From Bradyrhizobium sp. Y36 (GTDB taxonomy: Bacteria; Pseudomonadota; Alphaproteobacteria; Rhizobiales; Xanthobacteraceae): 64,000 nt of DNA. The notes below the pieces were generated by a model that was not told where the DNA came from, ran no database searches, and saw only the letters and a program-made list of their open reading frames with translations. Location: assembly GCF_002531575.1 (NCBI RefSeq), contig NZ_NWTI01000002.1, positions 248,001-312,000 on the forward strand, in the 5' to 3' direction. Made by a program: the position numbers and the translations under genes. Positions 22,028 through 38,211 of the stretch are shown one piece after another (position 1 is the stretch's first letter; each line of letters starts with the position of its first letter).

Positions 22028-22041
22028 AGGTCGAGTTTGGA

Positions 22042-23614: not shown

Positions 23615-23635
23615 AGCTCCGTCAGCCCGCGATAC

Positions 23636-23989
23636 CTACGCGAGCTTGCGCTTCGCCGCGGTTGCCTTGTCGCCGGTGTTCGGCGTGCCGGTCGGCTCGA
23701 TCAGCATGAGGTGAACCTCCTCGCGCGCCACGGGGCGGTGCTCGACCCCTTTGGGGACGACATAGAGCTCGCCGGGACCGAGCGTCACAGTGCGGTCCCG
23801 CAATTCGATGTCCAGGCGGCCTTTCAGAACCAGAAAGAAATCGTCGGTGTCGTCGTGCTTGTGCCAGGTGAACTCGCCCTTCACCTTCACCACCATCACG
23901 TCGCAATCGTTGAAGGTGGTGACGGTGCGCGGCGACCAATGCTCCTCGAAGGTGGCGAGCTTGTCGGCCAGCGAGATGCGATCTGTCAT
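23636..23989 (-). CDS. Cupin domain protein
   Basis: About 117 residues with a single small cupin barrel. The metal motif 1 is WHKHDDTDDFFLVLKG (HxH, then E replaced by D/F in DDFF) and motif 2 is PGELYVVPKGVEHRP, with the His of the fourth ligand present. The start MTDRISLADK at ATG 23989 has gggggaa 5-6 bp upstream. The C-terminal tail (GDKATAAKRKLA) is basic. Stand-alone cupins of this size may bind sugars, metals or small acids, and nothing here decides between them. It is convergent with the GFA gene and about 120 bp upstream of the phosphoesterase stop. Confidence 0.85.
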   Translation of the reverse strand: MTDRISLADKLATFEEHWSPRTVTTFNDCDVMVVKVKGEFTWHKHDDTDDFFLVLKGRLDIELRDRTVTLGPGELYVVPKGVEHRPVAREEVHLMLIEPTGTPNTGDKATAAKRKLA

Positions 23990-24112
23990 GTTTCCCCCTG
24001 TTGCTCTTGCGTGCAAGATGTGGGATCGCGTGAAGGGCGCGACAAGATCGTGGTCATCTGTCCGGTCGATCCTGCCGTGCCGGCTTTGTCTCGGAGATCG
24101 CGCGAGAGCCGG

Positions 24113-24853
24113 CTATGTGACGCATCCGGTCAACATGGCCTGCGCCCATTCGGGGCGATTGTTGGCGAGCGCGCGTGCCGAAGCGGCGTCCCAATCATAT
24201 TCGAGGGCCAGGAGCTCGACCTGCCAGCCCCGTTTCTGCTTCGTGAGGATCGCGTAGCGGGCGTGCGGCGAGCGATACTCCAGGTTGGCGGCAAACGGAA
24301 TGTCGCCGAACACCGGGCAGCCGACGCTTCCCGGATTGAGAACCAGGCATTCGCCGGGGCCCTGGACGACCGCCTGACGATGGCTATGGCCGCACAGCAC
24401 CACGCGGGCGGTCGGCTCACTCTCGAGACGCGTTGCCAGCACCTCGCGGCGTGCCGGCACGTAGCGGCCGTCATCGAGCAATTCCTCCAGCAGGCACGTC
24501 GTGTCGTCGTCGGGCGTGCCGTGGCAAGCCAATATCCCGTCGTCGAGCCGCAATTGCGAGGGCAGGCTGTGGAGCGCATGCCGTTGCTCCGCAGTCAATG
24601 CGCGACGTGCAAACAGGCCTGCCGGCGAGAGCTTGTCGTCCGGAAACTCCTCGATCCAGCGGTCATGGTTTCCGCGCACGGTCGGCAACGCCAGCGCCTG
24701 CAGCGCCTCGAAGGTCTCTTTCGGCCACAACGGGCTGGTGACGCAATCGCCGAGGTTCACGGTGCGATCGACGCCTCGCGCCTTGATGTCGGCCAGCACG
24801 GCCTCCAACGCGGCAAGGTTGCCGTGGATATCGGACATGACGGCCAATCGCAT
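24113..24853 (-). CDS. Calcineurin-like metallophosphoesterase
   Basis: A 246-residue phosphoesterase of the YfcE/MJ0936-like group. The dimetal motifs are in order: MSDIHGNLAAL (D7, H9), LGDCVTSPLWP, GNHDRW, HGTPDD and LCGHSHRQ, with NPGSVGCP at the C-terminal strand. This set predicts a two-metal phosphodiesterase or phosphomonoesterase; the natural substrate is unknown. It starts at ATG 24853 (MRLAVMSD), with the family's usual first strand. The gene lies alone on the minus strand. The 266-bp gap towards the helicase gene holds only a small hairpin (CCATGcaacataggCATGG). Confidence 0.9.
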   Translation of the reverse strand: MRLAVMSDIHGNLAALEAVLADIKARGVDRTVNLGDCVTSPLWPKETFEALQALALPTVRGNHDRWIEEFPDDKLSPAGLFARRALTAEQRHALHSLPSQLRLDDGILACHGTPDDDTTCLLEELLDDGRYVPARREVLATRLESEPTARVVLCGHSHRQAVVQGPGECLVLNPGSVGCPVFGDIPFAANLEYRSPHARYAILTKQKRGWQVELLALEYDWDAASARALANNRPEWAQAMLTGCVT

Positions 24854-25119
24854 GGTTTATGCTCCCCATTGATCTCGGCCGGTTACTGCCGGCTCCGGTT
24901 GCACTGATGTTAAAGGCCGGCACAAAAATCCGCTGCAACCTTCAGGCGCGGTTCTCCCAGCCAAGCCATGCAACATAGGCATGGTGATTTCCGCGCGCTT
25001 GGCGTAAAGAGCGCCCAGATCAAATCGCCAGCGTGCGGCCGGGCCGATTGCCGCGCACGCCAGCCTCAGGCCCCTCGGCTCGCTGTTGCCGCGCCTGAAT
25101 TAACCAAGGTTCTCCATCC

Positions 25120-27129
25120 GTGTCTCTTCCGGCCCTGACCCCGCCGCTCGCCCGCGCTTTGGCTGAGCGGAACTATGATTCACTGACCCCCGTCCAGCTC
25201 GCCGTGCTTGCCCACGAAGCCAACGGCCGCGACCTCCTGGTCTCGGCCCAGACCGGCTCCGGCAAGACCGTCGCCTACGGATTGGCCATCGCCAGGAATC
25301 TCCTCGGCGACGACGAGCAGTTCGGGCAGGCCGCAGCCCCGCTCGCCCTGATCGTGGCACCGACCCGCGAGCTGGCGCTTCAGGTTCAGCGCGAGCTCGC
25401 CTGGCTCTATGGGCAGGCGGGGGGCCGCGTCGTCTCCTGTGTCGGCGGCATGGATCCGCGCCGCGAGCAGCGCGAGCTTGCGGCCGGCGCCCACATCGTC
25501 GTCGGCACACCCGGCCGGCTGTGCGATCATTTGCGCCGCGGCCGGCTCGATATCTCCGAGCTCGCCGCGGTCGTGCTCGACGAGGCCGACGAGATGCTCA
25601 ATCTCGGCTTTCGCGAGGACATGGAATTCATCCTCGAGACCACGCCGGAGACGCGCCGCACCCTGATGTTCTCGGCGACGTTCCCGCGCGGCATCGTCGC
25701 GCTGGCGCGGCAGTATCAGCGCGACGCCTTCCGGATCGAGGTCGCCGGCGACGAGGGCGGCCACGCCGACATCGAATATCGCGCGATCCGCATCGCGCCC
25801 GCCGACGTCGAGCACGCCGTCGTCAACGTGCTGCGCTTCTACGAGGCGCCGAGCGCGCTCGTCTTCTGCAGCACGCGCGACAACGTCAGGCACTTGCAGG
25901 CTGCGTTGCTGGAGCGCGGTTTTGCCGTGGTCGCGCTGTCGGGTGAATTGACACAGAACGAGCGGACCATGGCGCTGCAGTCGCTGCGCGACGGCCGCGC
26001 CCGCGTCTGCGTCGCGACCGACGTCGCCGCGCGCGGCATCGACCTGCCGAGCCTCGACCTCGTCATCCACGCCGACCTGCCCAACGACGCCGAGGTGATG
26101 CAGCATCGTTCGGGGCGCACGGGGCGCGCGGGCCGCAAGGGCACGAGCGTCCTGCTGGTGCCGCCGGCGCGGCGCCGGCGCGCCGAGCTGCTGCTCAATC
26201 TCTCCGGAATCGACGCGGCCTGGGGCACGGCGCCCCAGGCGGAGGAGATCCGCAAGCTCGACCACGATCGCATGAAGGACGTGCTGTTCACCGAGGAGAC
26301 CACGCCCGACGATCTGGCGCTGGCGCAGGCCTTGCTCGCCGAACGGCCGGCCGAGGACATCGCCGCCGCGCTGGCGCGGCTCTATCGCGCGCGGCTGCCG
26401 TCGCCGGAGGACATCATCGATCCCGGCGAGCGACCCGCCCGGTCGCGTGACGATCGCGGCCGCGACAAATTCCGCGATCGCGGCGAGGGCGGCGACGACC
26501 GCGCCGACAAGCCCCGGCCGAAATCGGGGAAGGCGTCGGCGAAGCATACCATGGCCGAAGGCAGCGTCTGGTTCCGCGCGGCGATCGGACGGCGCAAGAA
26601 TGCGGAGGCGCGCTGGCTGTTGCCGATGATCTGCCGCCGCGGCGGCATCGACAAGCGCGACATCGGCGCCATCAAGGTCATGGACACCACCACCGAGTTC
26701 GAGATTTCCGAGCGGGTCGCGGAATCCTTTGCCGCCAAGGTCAAGCGCCCGGACAAGGAAGACAGCATCCGCATCGAGCCGATGGCGGAGGTGCCGCAGC
26801 GACAAGAGGCCGCGGAAGAGCGGCCGCACGCGCCGCGCCGGGAGAGGGACGATCGCGAACGCCGCGACGAGCGCCCGCGCGAGCCAAATGATTTCAAGCC
26901 AAGCGAATTCAAATCACGTGATTTCAAGCCAAGCGAATTCAAGCCACGTGAATTCAAGCCGCGCGGCAAACCTTCGAGCGAGCGCGGACCGCGTTTCGAC
27001 GATGCGCCGCCGTTCGGAAAGAAAAAGAAGAATCGCGACAAGCAGGCCCGCGCGGAGCCCTCGGTCACGCCGTGGCCGGTGAAGGGTGCGCCGGGAAAGA
27101 AGCCGAAGAAGAAAAAGCATCGCGGCTGA
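25120..27129 (+). CDS. DEAD-box RNA helicase with DbpA-type C-domain
   Basis: A 669-residue ATP-dependent RNA helicase. Motifs in order: QTGSGKT (I), PTRELA (Ia), GTPGRL, LDEADEML (II), FSATFP (III), STRDNV, ARGID (V) and HRSGRTGRAG (VI). After about residue 460 comes a charged linker and a DbpA-like RNA-binding domain (GSVWFRAAIGRRKNAEARWLLPMI, about 485-550), as in DeaD/DbpA helicases of ribosome assembly and cold adaptation. The tail (about 600-669) is Arg/Lys-rich and contains three near-identical FKPSEFK / FKPREFK-type repeats. The start is GTG 25120 (SLPALTPPLARALAERNY). Soluble. It ends 27 bp before a strong hairpin. Confidence 0.93.
   Translation: MSLPALTPPLARALAERNYDSLTPVQLAVLAHEANGRDLLVSAQTGSGKTVAYGLAIARNLLGDDEQFGQAAAPLALIVAPTRELALQVQRELAWLYGQAGGRVVSCVGGMDPRREQRELAAGAHIVVGTPGRLCDHLRRGRLDISELAAVVLDEADEMLNLGFREDMEFILETTPETRRTLMFSATFPRGIVALARQYQRDAFRIEVAGDEGGHADIEYRAIRIAPADVEHAVVNVLRFYEAPSALVFCSTRDNVRHLQAALLERGFAVVALSGELTQNERTMALQSLRDGRARVCVATDVAARGIDLPSLDLVIHADLPNDAEVMQHRSGRTGRAGRKGTSVLLVPPARRRRAELLLNLSGIDAAWGTAPQAEEIRKLDHDRMKDVLFTEETTPDDLALAQALLAERPAEDIAAALARLYRARLPSPEDIIDPGERPARSRDDRGRDKFRDRGEGGDDRADKPRPKSGKASAKHTMAEGSVWFRAAIGRRKNAEARWLLPMICRRGGIDKRDIGAIKVMDTTTEFEISERVAESFAAKVKRPDKEDSIRIEPMAEVPQRQEAAEERPHAPRRERDDRERRDERPREPNDFKPSEFKSRDFKPSEFKPREFKPRGKPSSERGPRFDDAPPFGKKKKNRDKQARAEPSVTPWPVKGAPGKKPKKKKHRG
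26890..26966 (+). repeat. In-frame direct repeats in the helicase tail
   Basis: Near-identical units gatttcaagccaagcgaattc, repeated three to four times with substitutions, encode DFKPSEFK, DFKPSEFK and EFKPREFK. The repeats lie wholly inside the helicase gene and probably vary in number by slippage. Confidence 0.7.
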
Positions 27130-27155
27130 ACCGCCCTCGGTCAGCGCAGACAGCA

Positions 27156-27187
27156 ATGATGCCGCCGGATGGCACCGGCGGCATCAT
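27156..27187. terminator. Strong hairpin between convergent genes
   Basis: ATGATGCCGCCGG (27156-27168) and CCGGCGGCATCAT (27175-27187) are perfect 13-bp arms with a 6-base loop. It lies 27 bp after the helicase stop and 21 bp beyond the end of the minus-strand poly-glycine gene, so it can serve as a bidirectional terminator. No T-run follows. Confidence 0.65.
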
Positions 27188-27207
27188 CTGAAGGGTCAGC
27201 TGTGCGT

Positions 27208-27522
27208 TCAGCGACCGCCGCCGCCACCGCCACCGCCACCACCTCCGCCGCCACCACCGCCACCTCCGCCGCCGTCACGCATCGACGAGCTGTAGCGCGG
27301 GTCAGTCTGCTTCATGTAGATCGGCGAAGTGTCGTTCGTGATGCGACCGACCAGGCGGCGTGCGCGGCCCGGGGTGGACGATTCCGCAACGATGCCGCAG
27401 CTTTCGAAGAAGCCGAATTGGCAGCCATCGGTTCGGTGCGACGCCGCGTTGGCGCCGGTCGTTGCGAATGCGCTCGTCGCAACGCATGCAGCAAAAACAA
27501 GTTTCGACAATGTGAGCTTCAT
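27208..27522 (-). CDS. Secreted protein with 20-glycine tail
   Basis: A 104-residue secreted protein. The signal peptide is KLTLSKLVFAACVATSAFA (cleavage near residue 20-27). The middle has two cysteines (GCQFGFFESCG) and a basic stretch (RARRLVGRITND). The C-terminus is a run of exactly 20 glycines (codons 27214-27273) followed by arginine and stop. The glycine codons mix GGT, GGC and GGA, so the run is not a simple trinucleotide repeat. ATG 27522 has ggaga 6 bp upstream. A glycine tail may form a polyglycine-II sheet or be a spacer, but no family is recognised. It is convergent with the helicase gene. Confidence 0.7.
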   Translation of the reverse strand: MKLTLSKLVFAACVATSAFATTGANAASHRTDGCQFGFFESCGIVAESSTPGRARRLVGRITNDTSPIYMKQTDPRYSSSMRDGGGGGGGGGGGGGGGGGGGGR

Positions 27523-27649
27523 GGATATTCTCCAGCCTCGGTTCGGCGAGACCGGAACGGCTCGCACATCCCTTCGACGGAGCCTGTTCTGATCCGGTTC
27601 GAGGCCGTGATGTCACGCCCGCGTGAGCCGGGGCCGCCGGGGAGGGACG

Positions 27650-28156
27650 TTACGTCGCAGTGAGGTCGCGCAGCATATAGGTCGCGCCATCGCCGTAGGA
27701 GGCGAGCTTTGACCGCAGTTCCACGTCCGCCGCGACGGGCTTGAAGCCGAGACGCTGCCACATCGGCCGCGTGGCGTAGACCGAGACCAGTGCCAGCATT
27801 GCGAAGCCGGAGGTGCGCGCCAGCCGTTCGATATCGGCGACATAGGCGCGCAGAACGCCGCCGCGAAACTCGGCCAATACGGCGACGTCGTGGACGTAGA
27901 GGCAATCCGCGTCGTCCGGCAATCGTGCAAGCAGGCCGTCGAGCGGCGGGATCCGGTGCTGCGTCCAGGGATGCGAAAGGCCGTAGCCGGCGATCTCACT
28001 GCCGGCGATGAGCACGCGGCATCCGTCGGGATAGAGCCGCATCTTCTCCGCGAACACCTCCGGGCTTTCGGGGAGGTCGGGATGAATCCGTGCGGCGATC
28101 GCGCTGATCGCGGGCAGGTCGGTTGCGTGCGCCGGGCGCCAGTGCGGCTTGCTCAT
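27650..28156 (-). CDS. GNAT family N-acetyltransferase
   Basis: A 168-residue acetyltransferase with the GNAT order: N-terminal WRPAHATDLPAISAIAARIHP, strand and helix CLYVHDVAVLAEFRGGVLRAYVADIERLA (the RGGVLR segment stands where the acetyl-CoA pyrophosphate loop R/QxxGxG/A is expected), then MLALVSVYATRPMWQRLGFKPV at the C-terminal strand. The CoA loop reads EFRGGVLRA rather than the usual QGxGxG, so binding may be altered. Acceptor unknown. ATG 28156 is used. Neighbours are unrelated, so context does not help. Confidence 0.85.
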   Translation of the reverse strand: MSKPHWRPAHATDLPAISAIAARIHPDLPESPEVFAEKMRLYPDGCRVLIAGSEIAGYGLSHPWTQHRIPPLDGLLARLPDDADCLYVHDVAVLAEFRGGVLRAYVADIERLARTSGFAMLALVSVYATRPMWQRLGFKPVAADVELRSKLASYGDGATYMLRDLTAT

Positions 28157-28299
28157 GTGTCGTCGTTCCGTTTCGGTTGGCTCAGTTTATTCCGCTGCGT
28201 CGTGGCGCGCAGCGAAAAATATCCTTGCCGCAGTCTTGGGAATACGAGACCGCGCGCGGCGTCCTATCCATGCAAGCCAATTGCATGACAGGAGATATC

Positions 28300-28686
28300 A
28301 TGACGTCCCCGATCCGCCTCGCGCTCGCGCTCGCACTCTCGCTCGCGATCGTTCCCGCCGCCTTCGCCGCGCCGCCGACCAAGACCGGCAAGACCGACAA
28401 GGGCAACGTGCTCACCGATGCCAAGGGCATGACGCTCTACACCTTCGACAAGGACATGGACGGCAAGTCCGCCTGCAACGGTCCGTGTGCGACCAACTGG
28501 CCGGTGCTGAAGGCCGAGGCGAGCGACGCTGCCGGCGACGGTTACACCATCATCACCCGCGACGACGGCTCCAAGCAGTGGGCCTACAAGGGCAAGCCGC
28601 TCTACACTTTCGCCAAGGACACCAAGCCCGGCGACATCACCGGCGACGGTTTTCTGAACGGCGCCTGGCATCTGGCGACGCCGTAG
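28300..28686 (+). CDS. Secreted-repeat (PF03640/COG4315) protein
   Basis: A 128-residue exported protein. The signal peptide (LALALALSLAIVPAAFA) is followed by two copies of the short repeat family known as Lipoprotein_15/COG4315. Copy 1 holds LTDAKGMTLYTFDKDMDGKSACNGPCATNWPVLKA and copy 2 GSKQWAYKGKPLYTFAKDTKPGD. The conserved LYTF and C-x-x-x-C pairs are present. The family is widespread and periplasmic, with no agreed biochemical role. ATG 28300 has caggag 6 bp upstream. It is convergent with the DJ-1/PfpI gene (54-bp gap) and divergent from the GNAT gene. Confidence 0.88.
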   Translation: MTSPIRLALALALSLAIVPAAFAAPPTKTGKTDKGNVLTDAKGMTLYTFDKDMDGKSACNGPCATNWPVLKAEASDAAGDGYTIITRDDGSKQWAYKGKPLYTFAKDTKPGDITGDGFLNGAWHLATP

Positions 28687-28740
28687 CGGCGTATCGCGCG
28701 CCGGCTGTTGCAGGCGACAGCCGGCGGCACGGCCGCGCCG

Positions 28741-29874
28741 TCATCTCGGATATTCCAGCTGCATCGCGACGAAGTCGGCCGTGCGCGCCCCGTAGCGCGC
28801 GTCGATGTCGTGCAGCGTCCGGTCCAGCGCGCGCGCCGGCGGCAGGTCGAACGCGGCCGGCGGCGTCAGCTTTGCCGGCCATTCGGCCACGACCTTGTCG
28901 GGCAGGATGCGAAGACCGCCGCGGCTTGTCTGCGGCTCTGCCGTGGCGGCGAAGGTGAGGGCGCGCGAGCGGTAGGTGCGCGACCACGCATCGGCGACGA
29001 GCGCAAGCGAGACCTCGTCGACACCAGGCGTGAGCGCAATTCCGAGCTGCTCGCGATTCCAGAAGGCGAGCGTGTTGGCGATCGCCGTCAGCGCGAAGGG
29101 GCGGGTGAACCTGAACGCCTCGCTGCGGTGGCGCGCATCCCAGTGCGCAAGGCCAATCTCGCGGGCGACCGCCTCCGCCCTGGCGCGGCCGGCGATGGCC
29201 TCGACCAGGGTCAGGGCCATCGGCATGGATGCGGTGATACCGGTCGTCGTCGCGACGCCGCGGTCGACCACCAGCCTGCGATCGGCGACATAGCGGATCG
29301 CCGAATGCTTCTGCAGATCGCGCACGGAATACCAGTGCGTGGTGGCCTGCCGGCCGTCGAGCAGCCCGGTGCTGGCAACGACCATGGCACCGACGCAGAC
29401 GCCGACGACGATCGCGCCCTTGCCGGCCTGGCTTCTGATCCACTGCAAGGCCGCGGCATCGTCTTCGCGGCTCATCGCGGGCACGATCACGTAGTCGGCG
29501 CCGTCGGGATGGGCCGCGTCGAACTCGGCGATGGTCGCGTGCGGCTGCACTTTCAGCGCGGGGAAGAGTGTGACGGGTCCAGGCTGTGTCGACAATGTGA
29601 GGACGTCGGCGACATCGGCCCGCGCGAGAATGCCGTAAGGCATCAGATAGTCGGTCGTCTCGGTCATGTCGTTGATGCCGACGATGGCGATCAGGGGGCG
29701 CTTGCGCTTCGGCGGCTTCAGCGCCGCAAGCGTCGCCTCGGTTTCGTCTTTGGATATCGCAGGCGCGGTTCCCGGAGCCGGCGCGCCGGGCAGCAGCAAC
29801 AGCCAGGTTCCGCCGATGACTGCGAGCAACGCCACGCAGCCGAGAGCGCTCCATGCCAGAATGCGCCAGCTCAT
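28741..29874 (-). CDS. Membrane-anchored DJ-1/PfpI family protein
   Basis: About 377 residues. The N-terminus has one transmembrane helix (ALGCVALLAVIGGTWLLLLPG, about residues 10-30). A DJ-1/PfpI class-I glutamine amidotransferase-like domain follows (about 60-240). Its nucleophile-elbow cysteine is in VGVCVGAMVVA, and ATTHWYS and VATTTGITASMPMALTLVEAI are typical of the GlxA-like group. GlxA homologues usually carry a C-terminal AraC helix-turn-helix, which I do not see here. The last 100 residues (ALTFAATAEPQTSRGG onwards) are unfamiliar. It probably acts at or outside the membrane, not as a DNA-binding regulator. Confidence 0.8.
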   Translation of the reverse strand: MSWRILAWSALGCVALLAVIGGTWLLLLPGAPAPGTAPAISKDETEATLAALKPPKRKRPLIAIVGINDMTETTDYLMPYGILARADVADVLTLSTQPGPVTLFPALKVQPHATIAEFDAAHPDGADYVIVPAMSREDDAAALQWIRSQAGKGAIVVGVCVGAMVVASTGLLDGRQATTHWYSVRDLQKHSAIRYVADRRLVVDRGVATTTGITASMPMALTLVEAIAGRARAEAVAREIGLAHWDARHRSEAFRFTRPFALTAIANTLAFWNREQLGIALTPGVDEVSLALVADAWSRTYRSRALTFAATAEPQTSRGGLRILPDKVVAEWPAKLTPPAAFDLPPARALDRTLHDIDARYGARTADFVAMQLEYPR

Positions 29875-30003
29875 GAGATGCCACCCGATCGTCGTTGCTT
29901 CACGCCGCGCGGAAGCTACTCGTTCGCAGCACGATCAGGAATGACGCAGATCCCGCAAAAACGGTCGCGTGCGCCGGCGCGATCAATCGTCACGCAGTGG
30001 GAA

Positions 30004-30558
30004 CTACCGCAGTCCCTCATACACCATCAGCCCGCGTGCGATCTGCAATTTGCGGATCGCGCGTGGCAGCAGCTTCTCCGGCTGGTGCAGATAGCGCCAG
30101 GAGGTGAGGGTGAAGGTCGAAAGCGCGCCGCACTCGTCGTCGAACGGCGCGAGCACGCCGGTCACGCTCACCGGCGTGTGCGGGCGGGCGTTGAAGGGCA
30201 GCAGCAACAGCTCGAGATAGGCCTTGCTGCCGTCCTCGCGCGCGGCGGTGACGCCGGCGATCGCGCCCAGCGTCTCGTCGGCGACGATGGTCGTGATCTC
30301 CGCGAGCTCGCTGCGGCTCGCATCATCGAACAGCGCCGCGAAGCTCTGGTCCTTGAGGTCACGCCCCGCCAGCGCGCAGACCCGCGTGCCGGCGACGCGG
30401 AAGGGAAAGCCGAGATGGGGCTCGCAGGAGAGGACAAAAATGTCGCCGAGCAGGCCGCGCACCGCAGCCGGATCGATGTCGGCCCTGTCAGGGGCCCGCG
30501 CAGCGCCGCGCTTCTTGTCCCAATACGCGAAGAACGCGCGGCTCGACGAATGTTTCAT
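30004..30558 (-). CDS. PAS domain protein (PAS_5 type)
   Basis: A 184-residue cytosolic protein with the PAS_5 pattern: an N-terminal FFAYWDKKRG, then AAVRGLLGDIFVLSC, FPFRVAGTRVCALAGRDLKDQSF, and later LLPFNARPHTPVSVTGVLAPFDD. These single-PAS proteins are common in Alphaproteobacteria, and most have no known role. No effector domain is fused. ATG 30558 is used. It is divergent from the 454-bp region that holds the candidate non-coding RNA, and it faces the DJ-1/PfpI gene on the same strand 130 bp downstream. Confidence 0.85.
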   Translation of the reverse strand: MKHSSSRAFFAYWDKKRGAARAPDRADIDPAAVRGLLGDIFVLSCEPHLGFPFRVAGTRVCALAGRDLKDQSFAALFDDASRSELAEITTIVADETLGAIAGVTAAREDGSKAYLELLLLPFNARPHTPVSVTGVLAPFDDECGALSTFTLTSWRYLHQPEKLLPRAIRKLQIARGLMVYEGLR

Positions 30559-30711
30559 GTCTGAACGCTTACCCCGGGGGTGCGACCTCGGAAGGACAGA
30601 CCTGTCCCGCTTCAGTGCACCCGCGATCCCTTGTGTTGTTGTGCAGGAGGGGATTTGCAGCGTCCATGCCGCAGCGGCGTTTTCGCCTCCCTTAAGGCCG
30701 CCTTTGCGTCG

Positions 30712-30726
30712 TTAACGTTAAGTTAA
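30712..30726 (+). promoter_or_regulatory. CtrA-type box TTAA-N7-TTAA
   Basis: TTAACGTTAAGTTAA is an exact TTAA-N7-TTAA site and is followed by a C, as in the extended consensus. A further TTAA lies at 30692-30695. It sits just upstream of the candidate non-coding RNA. Binding is inferred. Confidence 0.6.
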
Positions 30727-30734
30727 CTATGCGC

Positions 30735-30932
30735 TTTGCGCCGCGCCCCGCGCTGCTATGGTGATCGCAGTCGCAAGTCCCGCCGCTTTCTCCAGGTTCT
30801 CGGCGGGGTCTGTACACAGGGCGTCAAACAGTTTGGCCATGGGCCGGGGAGGGGTGGGGATACACCTTCATTCCCGAGGCACCAAAAGGCCGACACGGAC
30901 AGGCGGGGCTTTCCCAGGGCCCCGCCTTTTCC
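30735..30932 (+). ncRNA. Candidate CtrA-controlled non-coding RNA
   Basis: A stretch of about 200 bases lies between a perfect CtrA box and a strong rho-independent terminator, with no plausible protein inside. Internal structure includes the hairpin CCCGCCG (30779-30785) with CGGCGGG (around 30800-30806), and a G-quadruplex-like run at 30841-30861. The 5' end is not defined; if CtrA activates, transcription would begin shortly after 30727. I cannot match it to a known RNA family (6S, SRP RNA and tmRNA signatures are not seen). Confidence 0.4.
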
Positions 30933-30936
30933 TTTT
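30902..30936 (+). terminator. Intrinsic terminator before the rhomboid gene
   Basis: GGCGGGGC (30902-30909) and GCCCCGCC (30919-30926) form a perfect 8-bp GC stem, followed by TTTT-CC-TTTT. It ends about 77 bp before the rhomboid start, so it terminates a short upstream transcript rather than any known gene. Confidence 0.85.
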
Positions 30937-31012
30937 GTGCACTTGCGCAAGGCCGGCAAAGGCGACTATCTGCAAGCATATCGCTCCGATCGCGCCTGAA
31001 AGCGAAGCTGCC

Positions 31013-31834
31013 TTGGATTCCCCGCCGCAAGATTCGTCGCAAGATCCCCAGCCCGCCCTGCCGGTCGTCCATGAGGAGGCCCCGCGCGAGCCGATCCTGA
31101 CGCTGCCTGTGGCGCTGACTGCCTATATCCTCCTCCTGGCGGTGATCCATCTGCGGGTGCTGCTGCCGCCGGAGCTGGAGAACTGGACCATCGACGTCTT
31201 TGGCTTCATCCCGAAGCGCTACGATTCCTCGCTGCTCAATCTTGAGATCCCCGGCGGCGCCGGCGCGAAGGTCTGGACCTTCGTCACCTATTCGCTGCTG
31301 CACGCCAACCTGACCCATCTCGGCTTCAACGTGCTCTGGCTGCTGCCGTTCGGCAGCGCGCTGGCGCGGCGCTTTGGCGCGGTCAGGTTCTTCCTGTTCC
31401 TGGCAGTGACGGCGGCGGCCGGTGCGCTCGCCCATCTCGTCACCCACGAGCATGCGGTGGCGCCGATGATCGGCGCCTCGGCCTCGGTGTCGGGCGCGAT
31501 GGCCGCCGCCATCCGCTTTGCCTTCGTCCGCGGCAGCTTCCTGTCGTTCAACCGATCGGATGCCGATACCGCCGCCAGGGTTCCGGCGCTGCCGCTGTCG
31601 CGCGCGCTGCGCGACGGGCGGGTGGTCGGATTCCTCGCCGTGTGGTTCGGCGTCAACATCATCTTCGGCGTCGGCGCGATTGGCGTCGATTCCGAAACCA
31701 CCAGCGTGGCCTGGCAGGCGCATATCGGCGGCTTCTTCGCCGGCCTGTTGCTGTTCACCTTCTTCGATCCGGTGCCGCGCGTGCGAAGCGATGCTGCGGA
31801 TGCGTCATCACAGGACGTTTCAGACCGTATCTGA
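31013..31834 (+). CDS. Rhomboid family intramembrane serine protease
   Basis: About 273 residues with six or more membrane helices. The catalytic serine is in MIGASASVSGAMAA (GxSx, the serine at about residue 160), and the catalytic histidine is in AWQAHIGGFFAGLLLF near the C-terminus. The HANLTHLGFNVLWLLPFG segment carries the HxxxN oxyanion pair of the rhomboid fold. It cleaves single-pass membrane proteins within the bilayer; the substrate is unknown. The probable start is TTG 31013 (DSPPQDSSQDPQP). The frame continues upstream, but that part would cross the terminator at 30902-30936. The cytosolic N-terminus is proline-rich. Confidence 0.88.
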   Translation: MDSPPQDSSQDPQPALPVVHEEAPREPILTLPVALTAYILLLAVIHLRVLLPPELENWTIDVFGFIPKRYDSSLLNLEIPGGAGAKVWTFVTYSLLHANLTHLGFNVLWLLPFGSALARRFGAVRFFLFLAVTAAAGALAHLVTHEHAVAPMIGASASVSGAMAAAIRFAFVRGSFLSFNRSDADTAARVPALPLSRALRDGRVVGFLAVWFGVNIIFGVGAIGVDSETTSVAWQAHIGGFFAGLLLFTFFDPVPRVRSDAADASSQDVSDRI

Positions 31835-32027
31835 AGCGGCGCTTGCGGCGCGGCCCGAATTCATCCATCATTTGCGCGAAGAATGTTCGAAGCGACAAAG
31901 CGGTAGCGACGCTGCTTCGCAAAGCGCCCGCGCGTGAAACTGGCGCCAAACAAAACTGTTAGTTGAAGACTCGACGAACAAGTCCGGACCGCCAAAGCGC
32001 GGACGGATCCGATTCAGGGAGGCGACA

Positions 32028-32456
32028 ATGACGGTACGTTCCATTCTCAATACCAAGGGCCACCAGATCATGAGCGTCGAGCCCGACGCCAAGCTGGCGG
32101 CCGCGGTCAAACTGCTCGGCGAAAAGAAGATCGGCGCGGTGCTGGTGATGAACCAGAGCCGGCTCGAGGGCATCCTGTCCGAGCGCGACATCGTGCGCGT
32201 GCTCGGCGAGCGCGGTGCCAGCGTGCTGGAAGAGCCGGTCTCTCAGGTCATGACCCGCAAGGTCGTCACCTGCAAGGAGACCGACACGGTCGCCGAGCTC
32301 ATGGAGATGATGACATCGGGCAAGTTCCGCCATCTGCCCGTGCTCGACAACGGCAAGGTGGTCGGCCTGATCTCGATCGGCGACATCGTCAAGCGCCGGG
32401 TCCAGGAATACGAGAACGAGCAGGAAGCCCTGCGCGACTACATCAAGACGGCCTGA
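32028..32456 (+). CDS. CBS domain pair protein
   Basis: A 142-residue protein consisting of two CBS repeats. The first runs from about residue 5 (TVRSILNTKGHQIMSVEPDA) to 60 (GILSERDIVRVLGERG), the second from about 72 (VSQVMTRKVVTCKETDTVAELMEMM) to 130 (VGLISIGDIVKRRVQEYE). Both carry the (G)xISxxD-type end motif (ILSERD and LISIGD), which usually lines an adenosine-nucleotide site (AMP, ATP or SAM). The protein has no other domain, so it is likely a small regulatory or energy-sensing subunit. ATG 32028 has agggagg 5-6 bp upstream. Convergent with the patatin gene. Confidence 0.93.
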   Translation: MTVRSILNTKGHQIMSVEPDAKLAAAVKLLGEKKIGAVLVMNQSRLEGILSERDIVRVLGERGASVLEEPVSQVMTRKVVTCKETDTVAELMEMMTSGKFRHLPVLDNGKVVGLISIGDIVKRRVQEYENEQEALRDYIKTA

Positions 32457-32471
32457 TCAGGCCTGCTCGTC

Positions 32472-33506
32472 TCAGGCCTGATCGTCGGCCTTCGGCGCGT
32501 GGCCCGCAGGCGCGGGGGCCAGCACGTCGATCGCCTCCTGGATCGACTCCAGCGCGCGTTCGGCGGCGCGCGCGCCGTGGGCGATCAGGTCCTCGGAGCG
32601 GTGGAAGTCGAACCAGCCGAACTGGCCGACCCGGGGCGAGATCAAGAGGTCCGGCGGATCGCCGGCGAGGCGGGCGCGAGTGATGCGGTCCTGCATGATG
32701 TTGAAGGCATCGACCATCACCGAGGAGATGCCCGGGCGCCCGGCGCTGCCGAAGAACTCGCGCTTCATCGTCTTCTCGGGTGAGAACAAGCGCGGAAAAC
32801 GCCGCTTGGCGGTCGTCTCCTCCGGCTCGGCTGCGACCGGCGCGGCCATCGCGCCGTGCGAATAGATCGTCGTGGAATGGGTGAAGATGTCACTGGAAAG
32901 ATTTGCAGCGATGACGATTTCGGCGCCGAGCGCACGGGCCGCCGAGACCGGTACCGGATTCACCAGCGCGCCGTCGACCAGCCAGCGGTCGCCGATCAGC
33001 ATGGGCTGGAAGATGCCGGGCAGGGCGTAGGACGCGCGCATCGCATCGACGACGCGGCCATGCGTCAGCCAGATCTCGTGACCGGTGCGGACCTCGGTCG
33101 CGACACTCGCGAACTTGACCGGCAAATCCTCGATCAGGGTCTGGCCAACCGCATCCGCAAGGCGGCTTGCCAGCTTCTCGCCGCCAAGCAGGCCCGAGCC
33201 GTTGAGGCGGATGTCGAGATAGCCGATGATGTTGCGCATGCCCTGCAGGCTGCGGCCCCATTCTTCGAACGTCTCGAGCCGCCCGGCCGCATGGAGGCCG
33301 CCGACCACGGCGCCGATGGACGTGCCGACCACGACATCGGGCACGATGCCGTTGGCGATCAGGGTCCGGAGGATACCGATATGAGCAAAGCCGCGCGCCG
33401 CGCCGCCGCCGAGGGCGAGGCCGATGACCGGCCGCCGGGTGGGGCCAAGGCCGATCTTCTCACCGTTCGCCCCGTTTGCGCTGCGCCCCTTCAAGATGTC
33501 CAGCAC
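32472..33506 (-). CDS. Patatin-like phospholipase family protein
   Basis: About 345 residues. The catalytic dyad is visible: the GTSIGA elbow (Ser, about residue 72) and the DGA motif in WLVDGALVNPVP (Asp, about 190). The oxyanion-hole glycine run is ALGGGAARGFAHIG, so all patatin landmarks are intact. Family members hydrolyse membrane phospholipids or esters (RssA-like in some cases). The start is GTG 33506 (LDILKGRS), with aggaga 7 bp upstream. The frame stays open further upstream to 33683, but that N-terminus is Arg/Pro-rich and unlike the family. Soluble or peripheral. Convergent with the CBS gene. Confidence 0.88.
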   Translation of the reverse strand: MLDILKGRSANGANGEKIGLGPTRRPVIGLALGGGAARGFAHIGILRTLIANGIVPDVVVGTSIGAVVGGLHAAGRLETFEEWGRSLQGMRNIIGYLDIRLNGSGLLGGEKLASRLADAVGQTLIEDLPVKFASVATEVRTGHEIWLTHGRVVDAMRASYALPGIFQPMLIGDRWLVDGALVNPVPVSAARALGAEIVIAANLSSDIFTHSTTIYSHGAMAAPVAAEPEETTAKRRFPRLFSPEKTMKREFFGSAGRPGISSVMVDAFNIMQDRITRARLAGDPPDLLISPRVGQFGWFDFHRSEDLIAHGARAAERALESIQEAIDVLAPAPAGHAPKADDQA

Positions 33507-33778
33507 CGAAACTCTCCTACGCCGGGGCCAACGCTGCAGCCAAGGCTGCGGCCGAGCCCGTATCGTCAGACTAGGTACCGCACTCGCACTCCGCCATCCC
33601 GGGCGCGAAGCATGGTTTATGCCGCTTTGGAGAGGGCACCGGGCAGGAGTATGGCGAGGGGCGGTTGCCTCAGGACTAATCACGCAGGCGTCAACCGGGT
33701 TCCATCAATCCGGGGACCCGTATTTCCTGGGGGTTCAGAGGCTTGAATTTGCCGCGTTTTCGGTGAAAAGCAGGGAGC

Positions 33779-34852
33779 ATGACACGCGGGGGTGACGGCA
33801 TCATCGGATGGCGGCGCAGCGGCAGGCTGCTGCCGGCGCTGATCCTTGCTGCGTGCCTCGTTACCTCGGGCCAACATGCTGCCCAGGCGCAGCTTTTCTC
33901 CGATCGCCCGCCGCCGGTGCCGCCCGCCTCGGTGCCCGATCCCGGCGGCGCCATCAATCTGGCACCGCCCGGCGGGCCGGGTGCCGGCCCGCCGAGCCTG
34001 CCGCCGACCCTGATGCAGCCGGCGACGCCCAGCATGCCGCCGCCCGCGGTCTCCACCGTGCCGCCGGCCGCGCCGCTCAATGCGGCCGTGCCCGGGCAGG
34101 GCGTGCTGTCGCTGACCGCCAAATACGGCAAGGACACGCCGGCGATCACCAGCGGTCTGGTCTGGCGCGTGTTCGCCGACCGCCCCGACGAGAACGGCAC
34201 CTTCAAGCTGATCCGCGAAGACCGCAACGCGACGCCGAACATCGTGCTGCCGCCCGGCAATTACGTCGTGCACGTCGCCTTCGGCCTCGTCAGCGCGGTG
34301 CGCACCGTCAGCCTGAAGGCCGAGACCGACCGCGAATCCTTCGTGCTGCCGGCCGGCGGCCTGCGCATCGAAGGCCGCGTCGGCACCAGCCGCATCCCGC
34401 AGAACCAGATCTCGTTCGCAATCTACAAGGGCAGCCAGTTCGAATCCGGCGAGCGCGCCTCCCTGGTGCCGAACGTCGCCGCCGGCGACGTCGTGCTGAT
34501 CCCGGAAGGCACCTACTACATCATCTCCAACTATGGCGACGCCAACTCGGTGGTGCGCTCGGACATCCGCGTCCAGGCCGGCAAGCTCACCGACGTCACC
34601 ATCACCCACCGCGCTGCCGTGATCACGCTCAAGCTGGTCAGCGACAAGGGCGGCGAGGCGCTCGCCAACACCGCCTGGTCGGTGCTGACCCCCGGCGGCG
34701 ACGTCATCAAGGAATCCATCGGCGCCTTCCCGCGCGTGGTGCTCTCCGAAGGCGAATACCGCGCCATCGCCAAGAACGAGGGCAAGGTCTACGAGCGCGG
34801 CTTCAATGTCGTGAACGGCGTCGACGGCGAAGTGGAAGTCGTCGCGCGCTAG
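33779..34852 (+). CDS. Secreted proline-rich/beta-domain protein
   Basis: A 357-residue exported protein of unknown function. The signal segment (LLPALILAACLVTSGQHAAQAQ) contains LAAC, a possible lipobox, so it may be a lipoprotein with Cys about residue 25. A Pro/Gly/Ala-rich linker (about 40-105) leads to three beta-rich modules (about 108-350). Repeated patterns are VLPPGNYVVHVAFG, VLIPEGTYYIISNYG and VVLSEGEYRAIAKNEG, typical of a carboxypeptidase-regulatory-like or Ig-like fold repeated three times. The ATG at 33779 follows cagggagc closely. It stands alone on the plus strand. I recall conserved hypothetical relatives in Rhizobiales. Confidence 0.8.
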   Translation: MTRGGDGIIGWRRSGRLLPALILAACLVTSGQHAAQAQLFSDRPPPVPPASVPDPGGAINLAPPGGPGAGPPSLPPTLMQPATPSMPPPAVSTVPPAAPLNAAVPGQGVLSLTAKYGKDTPAITSGLVWRVFADRPDENGTFKLIREDRNATPNIVLPPGNYVVHVAFGLVSAVRTVSLKAETDRESFVLPAGGLRIEGRVGTSRIPQNQISFAIYKGSQFESGERASLVPNVAAGDVVLIPEGTYYIISNYGDANSVVRSDIRVQAGKLTDVTITHRAAVITLKLVSDKGGEALANTAWSVLTPGGDVIKESIGAFPRVVLSEGEYRAIAKNEGKVYERGFNVVNGVDGEVEVVAR

Positions 34853-35232
34853 AGCCGGGCGGCGCGGCTGCCTGCTGTATCAAGTCCGGCTTGACGTCGA
34901 GCCCGACTTCTCATCGCACGCATCATCGTGCATCTCCTGTTACCGCTTGCCAATTGCGCGGCCGGGAGAGTCGATCGCTCTGTGTACGGTGTTGAATACC
35001 GGCAGCACCGAAGAAATTGGCCGCTCGGGGCCAAGCAAACACCGCTGATCAGCGCTTATTCCCGCGCTCCGCGCGTTCATCACAGTCCGGTGCAAGATAC
35101 CTATTTCCGATCATCAATTTTATTCTCTTTCCGTCCTGCTGCGTTATATGTCGGGCATCCGTCTAACGGAGGAGGCCGGAGCAGGCTTGTGCGTCTGCGA
35201 GACCGGCGGGAGCAGGGGACCAACTCGCCGGC
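34853..35232. other. Intergenic gap, no clear gene
   Basis: 380 bp with only a small hairpin (GCACG-catcat-CGTGC, 34913-34928), and near its end a strong purine-rich ribosome site ggaggagg at 35169-35175. From there a very short frame (GTG 35189 to TGA 35245) overlaps the start of the next gene; see findings. Confidence 0.5.
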
Positions 35233-35427
35233 ATGTTCGAAGTGATCCTCACCAGGCGCAAGCGGTTTGGTTGGCGATGGCAGGTGTGCGACCAGTCCGG
35301 CAAGATCTTTGCTGACGGCTTCGAGCGCACCCGGCCGTCCGCCAAATACCATGGCGAGCGCGCATTATTCTTCCTGTTGTCGCAGGCCCATCTGCACAAC
35401 CGCTCGGCGGCGCCCAGCAAGGACTAA
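35233..35427 (+). CDS. Small conserved hypothetical protein
   Basis: A 64-residue basic, soluble protein (FEVILTRRKRFGWRWQVCD...GERALFFLLSQAHLHN). It resembles the short beta-hairpin proteins of the YegP/DUF1508 kind in its first half (FGWRWQVCDQSGKIFADG), but the match is weak. I have seen near-identical small proteins in Bradyrhizobium genomes, always unannotated. The ATG at 35233 has gcagggga about 13 bp upstream. It is also overlapped by a short frame starting behind a better ribosome site, so translational coupling is possible. Function unknown. Confidence 0.6.
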   Translation: MFEVILTRRKRFGWRWQVCDQSGKIFADGFERTRPSAKYHGERALFFLLSQAHLHNRSAAPSKD

Positions 35428-35447
35428 CGGCGGTACGGGCTACGGCC

Positions 35448-36440
35448 TCACACATCGACGACCAGCTTGCCCTTGGCGGCGTGATCCCTGATCAGCGCAT
35501 AGGCCCCGCCGACATTCTCCAGCGTGAAACGCCTGGCATCGAGGATCGGCACGAGCTTGCCGGCCTCGGCAAGGCGCGTGGCCTCCATCATGATCTCGCC
35601 ATGGTGCGCGCGGCCTTCGCCCGACAGCAGCGGCAGCAGGGTGAACACGCCGGAATAGGTGGCGGCACGGAATGACAGCGGGGCAAGCGCGTGCGTCCCC
35701 CAGCCGAGTGCACTCACCACATGGCCGAAGCGGCGCACCGCCTGGAAGGATGCGTCGAGCACCTTGCCGCCGACGGTGTCGTAGACGATGTCGAAGCCGC
35801 GGCCGCCGGTATGCTGGGCAACATAGGCATCGACCGCGCTGTCGCGGTCGATGAACACCGCGCCAAGACCTTCGACGGTGGGGCGCTGCGACACGGAGCC
35901 GGTGGCGAACACGTCCGCCCCGAAGGCGCGCGCGATCTGGATCGCGACATGGCCGACGCCGCCGGCGCCGCCATGGATCAACACCTTTTGGCCCGCCTTC
36001 AGGCCCGCGCGGTCGATCAGGCCTTCCCAGGCCGTGATGACGATCAGCGGCAGCGCCGCTGCTTCCCGCATGCTGAGATTGGCGGGCTTCAAGGCGAGGA
36101 GATCGGCATCGACCGCGGCGAACTCGGCGAGCGATCCCTGCACGCCGCCGACACCTCCGGTCATGCCGTAGACCTCGTCGCCCGGCTTGAACCGCGTCAC
36201 CTCGCGCCCGGTGCGCTCGACGATCCCGGCAAGATCGATCCCGGGAATCGCCGGCAGCGGATGGCGCGCATGGGCGGCGGCGCCGGCATGGATCTTGGTG
36301 TCGAGCGGATTGACCCCGCTGGCCCGCACCCGGACAAGCACCTCGCGCGGACCGACCTCGGGCGTGGAGATGGTCGAGAGCCGCAGCGGCGTGTTGTGAG
36401 CCTCCAGCACGGCCGCGCGCATCGTCGATTGTGTCGTCAT
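35448..36440 (-). CDS. Zinc-independent quinone reductase-like oxidoreductase
   Basis: About 330 residues, a medium-chain reductase of the QOR group. The first domain (about residues 1-125) contains VRVRASGVNPLDTKIHAG and AIPGIDLAGIVERTG. The NADP motif is HGGAGGVGHVAIQIA (GxGxxG-like, about 157). No zinc-binding cysteines are present, as expected for QOR-type enzymes that reduce quinones or enones with NADPH. ATG 36440 (MTTQSTMRAAV) has ggaga upstream; ATG 36422 (MRAAV) is a second choice. The frame stays open upstream across the LysR gene, but that is an antisense shadow. Divergent from the LysR gene, which probably controls it. Confidence 0.9.
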   Translation of the reverse strand: MTTQSTMRAAVLEAHNTPLRLSTISTPEVGPREVLVRVRASGVNPLDTKIHAGAAAHARHPLPAIPGIDLAGIVERTGREVTRFKPGDEVYGMTGGVGGVQGSLAEFAAVDADLLALKPANLSMREAAALPLIVITAWEGLIDRAGLKAGQKVLIHGGAGGVGHVAIQIARAFGADVFATGSVSQRPTVEGLGAVFIDRDSAVDAYVAQHTGGRGFDIVYDTVGGKVLDASFQAVRRFGHVVSALGWGTHALAPLSFRAATYSGVFTLLPLLSGEGRAHHGEIMMEATRLAEAGKLVPILDARRFTLENVGGAYALIRDHAAKGKLVVDV

Positions 36441-36542
36441 GATCGTCTGTCTCCGTTGTCGGCCTCCAATATGTCCATGAATTTTTGCATGGGAAGGAAC
36501 AAGGTTGTACGATTGCCGTGCGTTTTTGTATGAGGTTGTCCG
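36441..36542. promoter_or_regulatory. Divergent promoter with TTTTTGYATG repeats
   Basis: TTTTTGCATG (36482-36491) and TTTTTGTATG (36523-36532) are direct near-copies 41 bp apart, about four helical turns. The first is embedded in CCATG-aattttt-gCATGG. These look like the paired LysR sites that lie between a LysR gene and its divergent target. Confidence 0.45.
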
Positions 36543-37403
36543 ATGGATTGGAGCGATCTGCGCATCTTCCTGGCGATTGCGCGCGAAGGCACGCTCGGCG
36601 CGGCCGCACGCAGGATCGGCCAGACCCAGCCGACGATGGGGCGGCGGCTTCGCGCGCTCGAGACATCGCTGGGACAGACGCTGTTCCAGCGCACGGCGGA
36701 CGGCTTCGTGCTGACCGATGAGGGCGCCGCCGTGCTGCGTCACGCCGAGCGGATCGAGGACGAGGCGCTCGCGCTGGAGCGCGAGGTGTCCGGAGCGAAG
36801 ACGCAGCTCGATGGGCCGCTGCGCCTGTCGTCGTCCGACTGGTTCGGGACGGTGATGCTCTCGCCGCTGATCGCCGCGTTCGGCAAGCGGCACCCCGCCG
36901 TGACGGTGGAGCTTCTGACCGATGCGCGGCTCTACAGCCTGCCGCGGCGCGAGGCCGATCTGGTCTTCCGCATCAAGCCCTTCAGCGAGCCCGAGGTGAT
37001 CTCCCGCAAGCTGCTGCACATTCCGTACGCGCTCTATGGCAAGAAGGGCAGCAAGCCGCCGCGTGCCGGTGACGGCAGCGGCGTTCGCGTCGTGACCATG
37101 AACGCGGAATTCGCCGACATGCCGGACGCGGTCTGGCTGAAACGCATGCTGCCGCATGCAGAGGTCGCCTCGCGCAGCAACAACAGGCAGGTGCAGGCCG
37201 AGCTTTGCGCGCGCGGCGGCGGCCTTGCCGTGCTGCCCCGCCCGCTCGGCGACGGCGACCGGCGGCTGGTCGCGCTCGACATCGGCACGGCGCCGCCCGG
37301 CCGCGACACTTATCTCGGCTATCACCGCGACATGAAGCGCCTCGCCCGCCTGCGTGCGTTGCTCGATCTCGTGATCGAGAAGCTGGCAGCTGATGCTGCG
37401 TAG
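36543..37403 (+). CDS. LysR family transcriptional regulator
   Basis: A 286-residue regulator. The N-terminal helix-turn-helix (about residues 1-60) reads DLRIFLAIAREGTLGAAARRIGQTQPTMGRRLRALETSLGQTLF, with the LysR signature. The LysR_substrate periplasmic-binding-like domain follows (about 90-280; SSSDWFGTVMLSPLIAAFGKRHPAVTVEL). The effector cannot be read. It is transcribed divergently from the quinone-reductase-like gene, the usual arrangement for autoregulated LysR pairs. The frame's last codons and the TAG stop lie within a palindromic repeat that begins at 37400. ATG 36543 is used, with the HTH at the expected distance. Confidence 0.92.
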   Translation: MDWSDLRIFLAIAREGTLGAAARRIGQTQPTMGRRLRALETSLGQTLFQRTADGFVLTDEGAAVLRHAERIEDEALALEREVSGAKTQLDGPLRLSSSDWFGTVMLSPLIAAFGKRHPAVTVELLTDARLYSLPRREADLVFRIKPFSEPEVISRKLLHIPYALYGKKGSKPPRAGDGSGVRVVTMNAEFADMPDAVWLKRMLPHAEVASRSNNRQVQAELCARGGGLAVLPRPLGDGDRRLVALDIGTAPPGRDTYLGYHRDMKRLARLRALLDLVIEKLAADAA

Positions 37404-37486
37404 CCCGGATGAAGCGAAAGCGTAATCCGGGGCGCTCCTTCCGCTCGGATAGATTCCCGGATTGCGCTGCGCTCCATCCGGGCTAC
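37400..37486. repeat. Palindromic repeat (GTAGCCCGGAT type), copy 2
   Basis: GTAGCCCGGATGAAGCGAAAG and GCGCTCCATCCGGGCTAC are the two ends, imperfectly complementary. It is the same element as at 21942-22027. The stop codon of the LysR gene (TAG 37401-37403) is the second to fourth base of this repeat. Confidence 0.8.
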
Positions 37487-38122
37487 CAGATATCGCGTTG
37501 CCCGACGGGCAAAACACGCGAGCGGTAGGGCAACGCCCTTCGTCAAAAATATTCCACTTTACCGAATTTCGGGAATGGCGTATCCATCGCGGTAACCCGG
37601 CCCAAGGAAGAGGGGCGTATCGCGATCGTCACGAACGCGGGCTGGGCGGCGGTGGACGTCAGTCACATCGGCGCGAAGGGTCTTGCAGGGCGGGCAACCG
37701 TGAGCAAGACGATCGCGCACACGACCGATGTGATCGGCGTACGGCAAAATCGTGTGGTCCTGACGCCCGGGGTCTGTGCGTCAAGTCTTGCGGTGATGCG
37801 TGTCGTTCAACCGGACGCGCGCGTCAGTCATCCGAAAGGCGACGGGGGCAAGAGTGCAACGCTCCCCGGGGAGAGCACGCCATAAGCCGTCAACCCACTG
37901 CGCAGGGAAGGCCGGGATGTCCTGGCTACACCTGTATGCCGCTGTGCAGCTTCTTGTTACGCAGGATTCGCACAGTGGACCGCGGGTGCCAGCCGGCGCC
38001 CGGTCTTCCCTGCGCCCTCTTTCAAGCGAGGGCGAAGAGACGAAGCAAAACTCGGGCGAGGAAAGCCGCGAGAATGCAGTGGTGTGTCTACGACATGAGC
38101 TGCGTGCCGCAAGCTCGATCTC
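37487..38122. repeat. Degenerate copy of a dispersed Bradyrhizobium repeat
   Basis: About 640 bp with no intact gene. Short frames translate to text I recognise from an abundant, over-annotated intergenic repeat of this group (IAIVTNAGWAAVDV; then IPAFPAQWVDGLWRALPGE on the other strand). A 33-base segment at about 38045-38077 (ctcgggcgagg, then gccgcgagaatg) recurs with changes at about 38242-38275. I treat the whole as repeat, not as a degraded protein gene. Confidence 0.55.
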
Positions 38123-38211
38123 GTAGGGTGGGCAAAGGCGCATTGCGCCGCGCCCACGATCTCTCTCGACAAGCAACAAGGCGTGGGCACGCTGCGCTTT
38201 GCCCACCCTAC
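38123..38211. repeat. Palindromic repeat (GTAGGGTGGGCAAAG type), copy 1
   Basis: GTAGGGTGGGCAAAG at the left end and CTTTGCCCACCCTAC at the right end are perfect 15-bp arms, with a GC-rich interior. The second copy is at 58054-58147. Confidence 0.8.

Follow-up and report, generated by a model that had tools for sequence, protein, structure and literature searches.

Few small RNAs linked to the cell-cycle regulator CtrA are known. In Caulobacter, the 182-nt RNA CcnA is encoded at the replication-origin locus, has a CtrA box in its promoter and binds through CCCC the GGGG of the ctrA and gcrA 5' UTRs (PMC8959179). EcpR1 of Sinorhizobium, which is encoded at the divK-pleD/rpmG locus and stimulated by ppGpp, targets gcrA and dnaA (PMC4414408, PMC7143759). 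Small RNA sponges form a further comparison: there, an RNA with a promoter of its own pairs with an element in a 3' UTR, itself equipped with a terminator, an arrangement like that proposed for the pair described below. In Bradyrhizobium, no report of a CtrA-linked small RNA was found in the top results of the open-licence literature searched.

The 64-kb stretch of Bradyrhizobium DNA analysed here (the window) contains a predicted small RNA gene located between a divergent PAS_5 gene and a rhomboid gene, and its features are the following.

30004-30558, minus strand: divergent PAS_5 gene, with the same Pfam domain as MopJ (PF07310, E 2.5e-51)
30712-30727, plus strand: CtrA box TTAACGTTAAGTTAAC, from sequence match and conservation
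30735-30740, plus strand: -35-like TTTGCG, identified by eye in the alignment; many relatives have TTGGCG
30757-30762, plus strand: -10-like TATGGT; in relatives, TAnnnT begins 45-48 nt past the box start
30769-30936, plus strand: predicted small RNA of about 165 nt, its start inferred from the promoter and its end set by the terminator
30778-30808, plus strand: stem-loop 1, from alignment structure and covariation
30832-30895, plus strand: stem-loop 2, which encloses the G-rich loop, from alignment structure and covariation
30846-30861, plus strand: putative G-rich pairing sequence GGGGAGGGGTGGGGAT, from conservation and exact-copy search
30901-30936, plus strand: intrinsic terminator made up of stem-loop 3 and a T tract, from terminator scan and covariation
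31013-31834, plus strand: rhomboid gene, the conserved downstream neighbour

The alphaproteobacterial CtrA site is quoted as TTAANNNNNNGTTAAC (PMC7003649), and all ten of its fixed bases are matched at 30712-30727. Exact TTAA-N7-TTAA boxes occur three times in the window, against a mean of 0.01 in its shuffles, and at 36 distinct sites across the 7.3-Mb genome; the two others of the window are found at 2522-2536 and 55556-55570. The TTTGCG and TATGGT hexamers are separated by 16 nt. All 36 aligned loci of the genus carry the box exactly, and 34 of them have a -10-like hexamer 45-47 nt past the box start. Outside the genus, 50 of 55 loci of the family carry the box with at most one mismatch (42 exactly), and TAnnnT is present 45-48 nt past the box start in every one of these 50 (range searched 43-48). 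The criterion for a CtrA regulon member, a full CtrA site at a fixed distance to the promoter, is met at the sequence level; control of the small RNA by CtrA is inferred from this alone, without binding or expression data.

The terminator is the strongest of 10 matches in the 18 kb from 22000 to 40000, with 12 pairs versus at most 7 for the others; shuffles yield 11.9 matches of the weak pattern used in the scan. One ATG frame (30758) reads into the rhomboid gene. As a coding frame through the RNA it was rejected, being closed by a stop before the predicted RNA start in 22 of 35 genus loci and open in 13. A search of the 4227 Rfam families gives none at or above its gathering cut-off, the best match having 18.2 bits against a cut-off of 35. 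The preliminary description, which was made before any comparison of genomes, had placed an exact box at 30712-30726 and a strong rho-independent terminator at 30902-30936, with no plausible protein gene between them, a rhomboid gene about 77 bp further on and no match to a known family. All these claims hold: the terminator is now placed at 30901-30936, no protein reading is conserved and no Rfam family qualifies. Its expectation of a transcription start 20-40 bp after the box is corrected, because the best promoter, TTTGCG/TATGGT, fits an RNA start about 43 bp past the box, near 30769 (inferred).

A 321-base query from the locus matches 36 of 60 genomes: every one of the 36 from the window's genus, counting the window's own, but not one of the other 24. 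Named records with the core are, as far as scanned, nearly all Bradyrhizobium. Within the genus, GGGGAGGGGTGGGGAT is the best-conserved stretch of the RNA. The structure derived from 35 aligned transcripts has 29 pairs, 17 of them changed on both sides, and 97.4% of its cells are paired, versus 87.4% in column shuffles (0/500 as high). Sliding the partner by 1-3 columns leaves 33-58% paired, a control in which the structure is favoured by having been derived from the same alignment. In the genus alignment, L023 was swapped for L041 of the same genome, and L041 was omitted from alignment A1 because a repeat interrupts the RNA gene. This locus (genome G009) has a repeat-like palindromic insert between the G loop and the terminator.

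The preliminary description had read the locus as a CtrA-box-linked, terminator-ended non-coding RNA, a reading that lack of conservation in related genomes would refute and that covariation of conserved stem-loops would support. Conservation extends over many genera, compensatory changes are found in three stem-loops, and the reading is strongly supported by conservation, with expression and CtrA control remaining inferred. On this comparative evidence the small RNA gene is very likely real, its transcription again being an inference, and the criterion for a trans-acting small RNA (own promoter and terminator, conserved structure) is met at the sequence level.

In the wider family, the covariance model of the small RNA (R1) matches 69 of 198 genomes in 18 of 47 genera. 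Three of these matches (L152, L155, L156) are the 3' element of a protease gene, BTLCP, described below, and were dropped; their genomes (G143, G175, G219) are the sole matches of their genera, so the small RNA is retained in 66 of 198 genomes and 15 genera. An order-wide draw gives R1 matches in 11 of 199 genomes. Of these, 6 belong to the window's genus; the other 5, in other families, are weak (E 2e-4 to 3e-3) and were treated as chance. Among the 58 R1 matches inspected outside the genus, PAS_5 is divergent upstream in 55 and the rhomboid gene is downstream in 49. The box count given above keeps 55 of the 58 rows, the three BTLCP-element matches being removed, and L045 (G133), a near-identical copy in the genome of another genus, is excluded from both the neighbour and the box counts. 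Rhomboid homology lies about 900-1300 nt past the RNA start in L133, L139 and L149, versus the usual 210-420 or so. In G005, G018 and G022, the sequence beyond the terminator is displaced by a few hundred bases, as though by an insertion, and the RNA and its terminator are kept. L118 (G098) has a tandem duplicate of the small RNA, at 2005-2163 and 4058-4215, 2 kb apart. The conserved neighbourhood of the small RNA and BTLCP genes comprises PilZ, BTLCP, PAS_5, rhomboid and CBS; at 27208-27567 (minus strand) the window also has an ORF with a long glycine run at its end.

The candidate partner of the small RNA lies 14 kb away, with these features.

16524-16562, minus strand: intrinsic terminator that would end the BTLCP transcript, its T tract at 16524-16529
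16564-16611, minus strand: BTLCP 3' UTR hairpin whose C-rich loop, ACATCCCCACCCCTCCCCGTCCCA, is perfectly complementary to the G-rich loop over 17 nt
16630-17283, minus strand: BTLCP cysteine protease gene, LapG-family (PF06035 Peptidase_C93, E 2.1e-69)
17585-18250, minus strand: PilZ-domain gene, conserved neighbour of BTLCP

The 16-mer GGGGAGGGGTGGGGAT has two exact copies in the 7.3-Mb genome, one in the small RNA and the other at 16582-16597, in a hairpin just past the BTLCP stop and upstream of the BTLCP terminator. The second copy is antisense to the BTLCP 3' UTR, and therefore the BTLCP mRNA would carry a perfect 17-nt complement within a 24-nt loop. A 25-base pattern of this UTR element (at most 2 mismatches) is found in 114 of 198 family genomes, from 29 of 47 genera, and its reversed control in none; BTLCP adjoins the element in 38 of 38 loci examined (two genomes counted twice). 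The UTR hairpin and terminator covary, with 98.3% of cells paired over 33 sequences versus 27-41% in slid controls, and the strand that bears the terminator is the C-rich one. In the class, the element is present in 3 of 385 genomes: two from the window's genus, and a third from another family, in which it is also beside BTLCP and PilZ. Genome G531 (L320/L367), from another family, has a BTLCP 3' element with PilZ and PAS neighbours, and no convincing match is found upstream of its PAS gene.

The same arrangement is found in a genome which we take to be that of B. diazoefficiens USDA 110, since its nifH stop at 1,929,449 agrees with BjsR8 at 1,929,431. There the small RNA is at 6,114,310-6,114,483 (minus strand) and the UTR partner at 6,129,597-6,129,612, beside BTLCP on the plus strand, and the 16-mer has exactly two exact copies, in the RNA and antisense to the BTLCP 3' UTR. 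In G276 and G000, dispersed copies of GGGGAGGGTTGGGGAG occur at many places, possibly a repeat family close to the G motif.

Complementarity of the two RNAs was scored in 77 genomes of 26 other genera, of which 48 came from a model search that includes the G loop and 29, independent of that model, from the element and synteny only. In each genome the RNA, or else the gap between PAS and rhomboid, was matched locally to the UTR element of that same genome, with the opposite strand as control. The mean is 13.85 against 6.5 for the control, the own match being higher in 72 of 77 genomes, equal in 4 and lower in 1; for the synteny-only genomes the counts are 27, 1 and 1 of 29. In 12 of these 29 the exact match is significant at p<0.05 when compared with dinucleotide shuffles; it is 17 nt long in G169 and G216. 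From the synteny set, 14 of 43 loci were excluded for want of an adjacent PAS or rhomboid gene; four of them were scored, two matching (11.0 versus 6.5 each) and two not (7.0 versus 8.5; 8.0 versus 7.5). Cofolding of the two RNAs gives a predicted gain of 14 kcal/mol. In a whole-length RNAduplex comparison across the window, the BTLCP UTR is not ranked first.

The two sites also change together between genera. Genus-level permutation of the UTR elements over the 77 genomes gives 13.61 for the true assignment versus 12.43 when permuted (sd 0.25; 0/2000), and the last G run with its tail alone gives 8.04 versus 7.08 (0/2000). The result is likewise 0/2000 in the 48 model-found genomes and is not significant in the 29 synteny-only genomes, which have 3 distinct elements (206/2000). 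Earlier runs limited to own scores of at least 11 gave the same result, a choice that favours it, and all the permutations ignore relatedness between genera. Parallel changes in both RNAs are seen as GGGGGAC in G187, G217 and G231, as GGGA in G066 and as ACGTGAC in G073 and G114, and genera g64, g32, g39 and g37 have lineage-specific changes in both.

Evidence for compensatory change is limited to this co-variation between genera: none is seen within the synteny-only subset, and seven Bradyrhizobium genomes with changed G loops (six fetched for the purpose, and G163) have the UTR unchanged. The G loop is lost and the UTR loop kept in all 9 g52 genomes compared and in G198 and G151, and in G247 the match is weak. 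The UTR loop, which is conserved even where only partly matched, therefore probably has another role too. Loci of genus g52 (L131, L135, L137, L138 and L143, for example) keep ACAGG(T)GGC..AAACA, stem-loop 1 and the terminator without the G loop, a hint of a second function of the small RNA. Taken together, the BTLCP 3' UTR is the likely partner of the small RNA, with pairing in the cell as an inference.

The divergent PAS_5 gene likely shares the CtrA box with the small RNA, again by inference. Most loci have a box at a distance of 139-160 nt from the start of PAS. The RNA has a box of its own where an insertion or a longer gap sets the PAS gene apart. In eight loci the gap between the PAS gene and the RNA is long; these (L065, L071, L119, L130, L132, L133, L134, L142) have two boxes, one 139-151 nt from the PAS start and one 45 nt before the -10; in L040, 1.1 kb separates a PAS-side box (7/8 bases) from the RNA-side box, and L120, L123 and L040 retain the RNA-side box far from PAS. 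The two-box loci and L040 therefore indicate that the box belongs to the RNA promoter and, separately, to the PAS gene. MopJ of Caulobacter, which has the same single domain, acts on CtrA, and its S. meliloti homologue is SMc01000 (PMC4432633); SMc00999 of S. meliloti is a PilZ-like gene with a reported CtrA site (PMC4414408). The PAS leader has a conserved block at 30640-30680 (TTGTTGTGCAG..TTGCAGCGTCCATGCCG). A ATGGACGCNGC start on the minus strand of this leader is kept in 34 of 36 loci; the 32-codon leader ORF before PAS (MDAANPLLHN) was rejected despite this conserved start, as its frames diverge after about 10 codons.

These observations suggest a model in which CtrA would bind the box just upstream of the -35/-10 promoter, and the small RNA, ending at its own terminator, would fold into three stem-loops. 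The middle stem-loop may pair through its G-rich loop with the C-rich loop of the BTLCP 3' UTR hairpin (over 17 bp in the window's genome) or, alternatively, with a fragment released from this UTR, and pairing would tune either the protease or the fragment as the cell cycle proceeds. The conservation of box and promoter, the RNA structure, the complementarity and the co-variation of the two sites between genera are shown by the comparisons. Transcription, activation by CtrA, pairing in the cell and the direction of the effect are inferred from sequence alone. The whole model, a CtrA-controlled RNA of about 165 nt that pairs with the BTLCP 3' UTR and tunes it, is considered likely. A bolder reading goes further: a CtrA-gated RNA and a LapG-family protease 3' UTR hairpin would form a co-evolving pair throughout the family, kissing by their G- and C-rich loops, so that the cell-cycle regulator would reach surface adhesion and c-di-GMP signalling (the PilZ neighbour) by way of RNA, and in many genera the small RNA would act as a sponge for an RNA derived from the 3' UTR. 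For this reading the balance tips slightly to the negative.

A first rival is a sponge in which a small RNA released from the BTLCP 3' UTR binds G-rich ribosome sites of other mRNAs and is soaked up by the CtrA-box RNA, BTLCP itself not being a target. This is possible: the UTR hairpin and terminator are shaped like a 3' UTR-derived small RNA, the UTR loop is near-invariant and more widespread than the RNA (114/198 family genomes by pattern versus 66/198 by model, in searches that differ in reach), it persists where the RNA has lost its G loop, and CcnA is reported to act in this way, a C-rich loop binding GGGG (PMC8959179). However, no processing site, free fragment or fragment target has been demonstrated. 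It is unlikely that the two sites are kept alike by a protein, a G-quadruplex or gene conversion, without pairing, the small RNA having other targets. The G runs (GGGCCGGGGAGGGGTGGGG) do fit a G-quadruplex pattern in the window genome and close relatives, and the seven uncompensated variants, g52 and the lack of co-variation within the synteny-only subset speak for this view. Against it, the match extends into flanks outside the G runs that shift with lineage (ACGTGACC, ATAC, GGGGGAC), G129 and G195 retain only (G)GGGACGTGACC, which still matches, and the UTR strand that bears the terminator is the C-rich one. Because of the losses in g52, G198 and G151, the uncompensated variants, the duplex ranking and the relatedness of the genera, the shared-protein or G-quadruplex reading nevertheless stays possible.

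The remaining alternatives concern the gene itself. The box could serve only the PAS_5 gene, the RNA being constitutive or unrelated to CtrA, as the box 139-160 nt from PAS in most loci and the action on CtrA of MopJ, with the same domain, might suggest; this is very unlikely given the TAnnnT 45-48 nt past the box in 50 of 50 loci, the two boxes of the eight long-gap loci and the RNA-side box kept far from PAS in L120, L123 and L040. A leader or attenuator of the rhomboid gene, which is on the same strand with its start 77 bp downstream, is even harder to accept in place of a free RNA, since the RNA and terminator are kept where the rhomboid gene lies further off (L133, L139, L149; G005, G018, G022). 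That box and terminator co-occur by chance, with no transcript, rests on the absence of expression data in this analysis and is all but excluded by the structure covariation and the conservation over many genera.

The preferred reading thus remains a small RNA with a specific partner in the same conserved neighbourhood. This likely partner, the BTLCP 3' UTR, was absent from the preliminary description and is the new point added here; the regulatory outcome is not settled by sequence. The USDA 110 coordinates are given for both sites, in a strain for which published dRNA-seq exists (PMC4842269). In Pseudomonas, c-di-GMP controls the action of LapG on the surface adhesin LapA (PMC3032545). If the pairing is real, a cell-cycle regulator would be tied to a LapG-type protease, and the two genes, although separate, would offer an example of RNA-RNA covariation that spans many genera.

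CcnA, EcpR1, BjrC and BjsR were compared with the small RNA by locus, coordinates, motif or Rfam model, and none of them fits. The BjrC and BjsR RNAs are, like it, intergenic small RNAs of Bradyrhizobium (PMC5082802, PMC4842269); none of the listed BjsR1-10 coordinates is near 6,114,3xx-6,114,4xx of USDA 110, and BjrC68 (RF02353) maps elsewhere. EcpR1 is similar in being a cell-cycle-linked rhizobial small RNA whose GC-rich loop is conserved, but its neighbours are divK-pleD/rpmG, not PAS_5 and rhomboid (a comparison by locus, without alignment). CcnA shares a CtrA box in the promoter, a similar size and C/G-run pairing, here inferred, as the centre of target binding. In contrast with CcnA, which carries CCCC, lies at the replication origin and binds the ctrA and gcrA 5' UTRs, the conserved loop here is G-rich, the likely partner is a 3' UTR, the neighbours are PAS_5 and rhomboid, and the box centre is about -50 from the inferred start, while the CcnA box is at -23. 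From small RNA sponges and 3' UTR-derived small RNAs, the present pair differs in the co-variation of its loops between genera and in the location of the two genes within one conserved neighbourhood.
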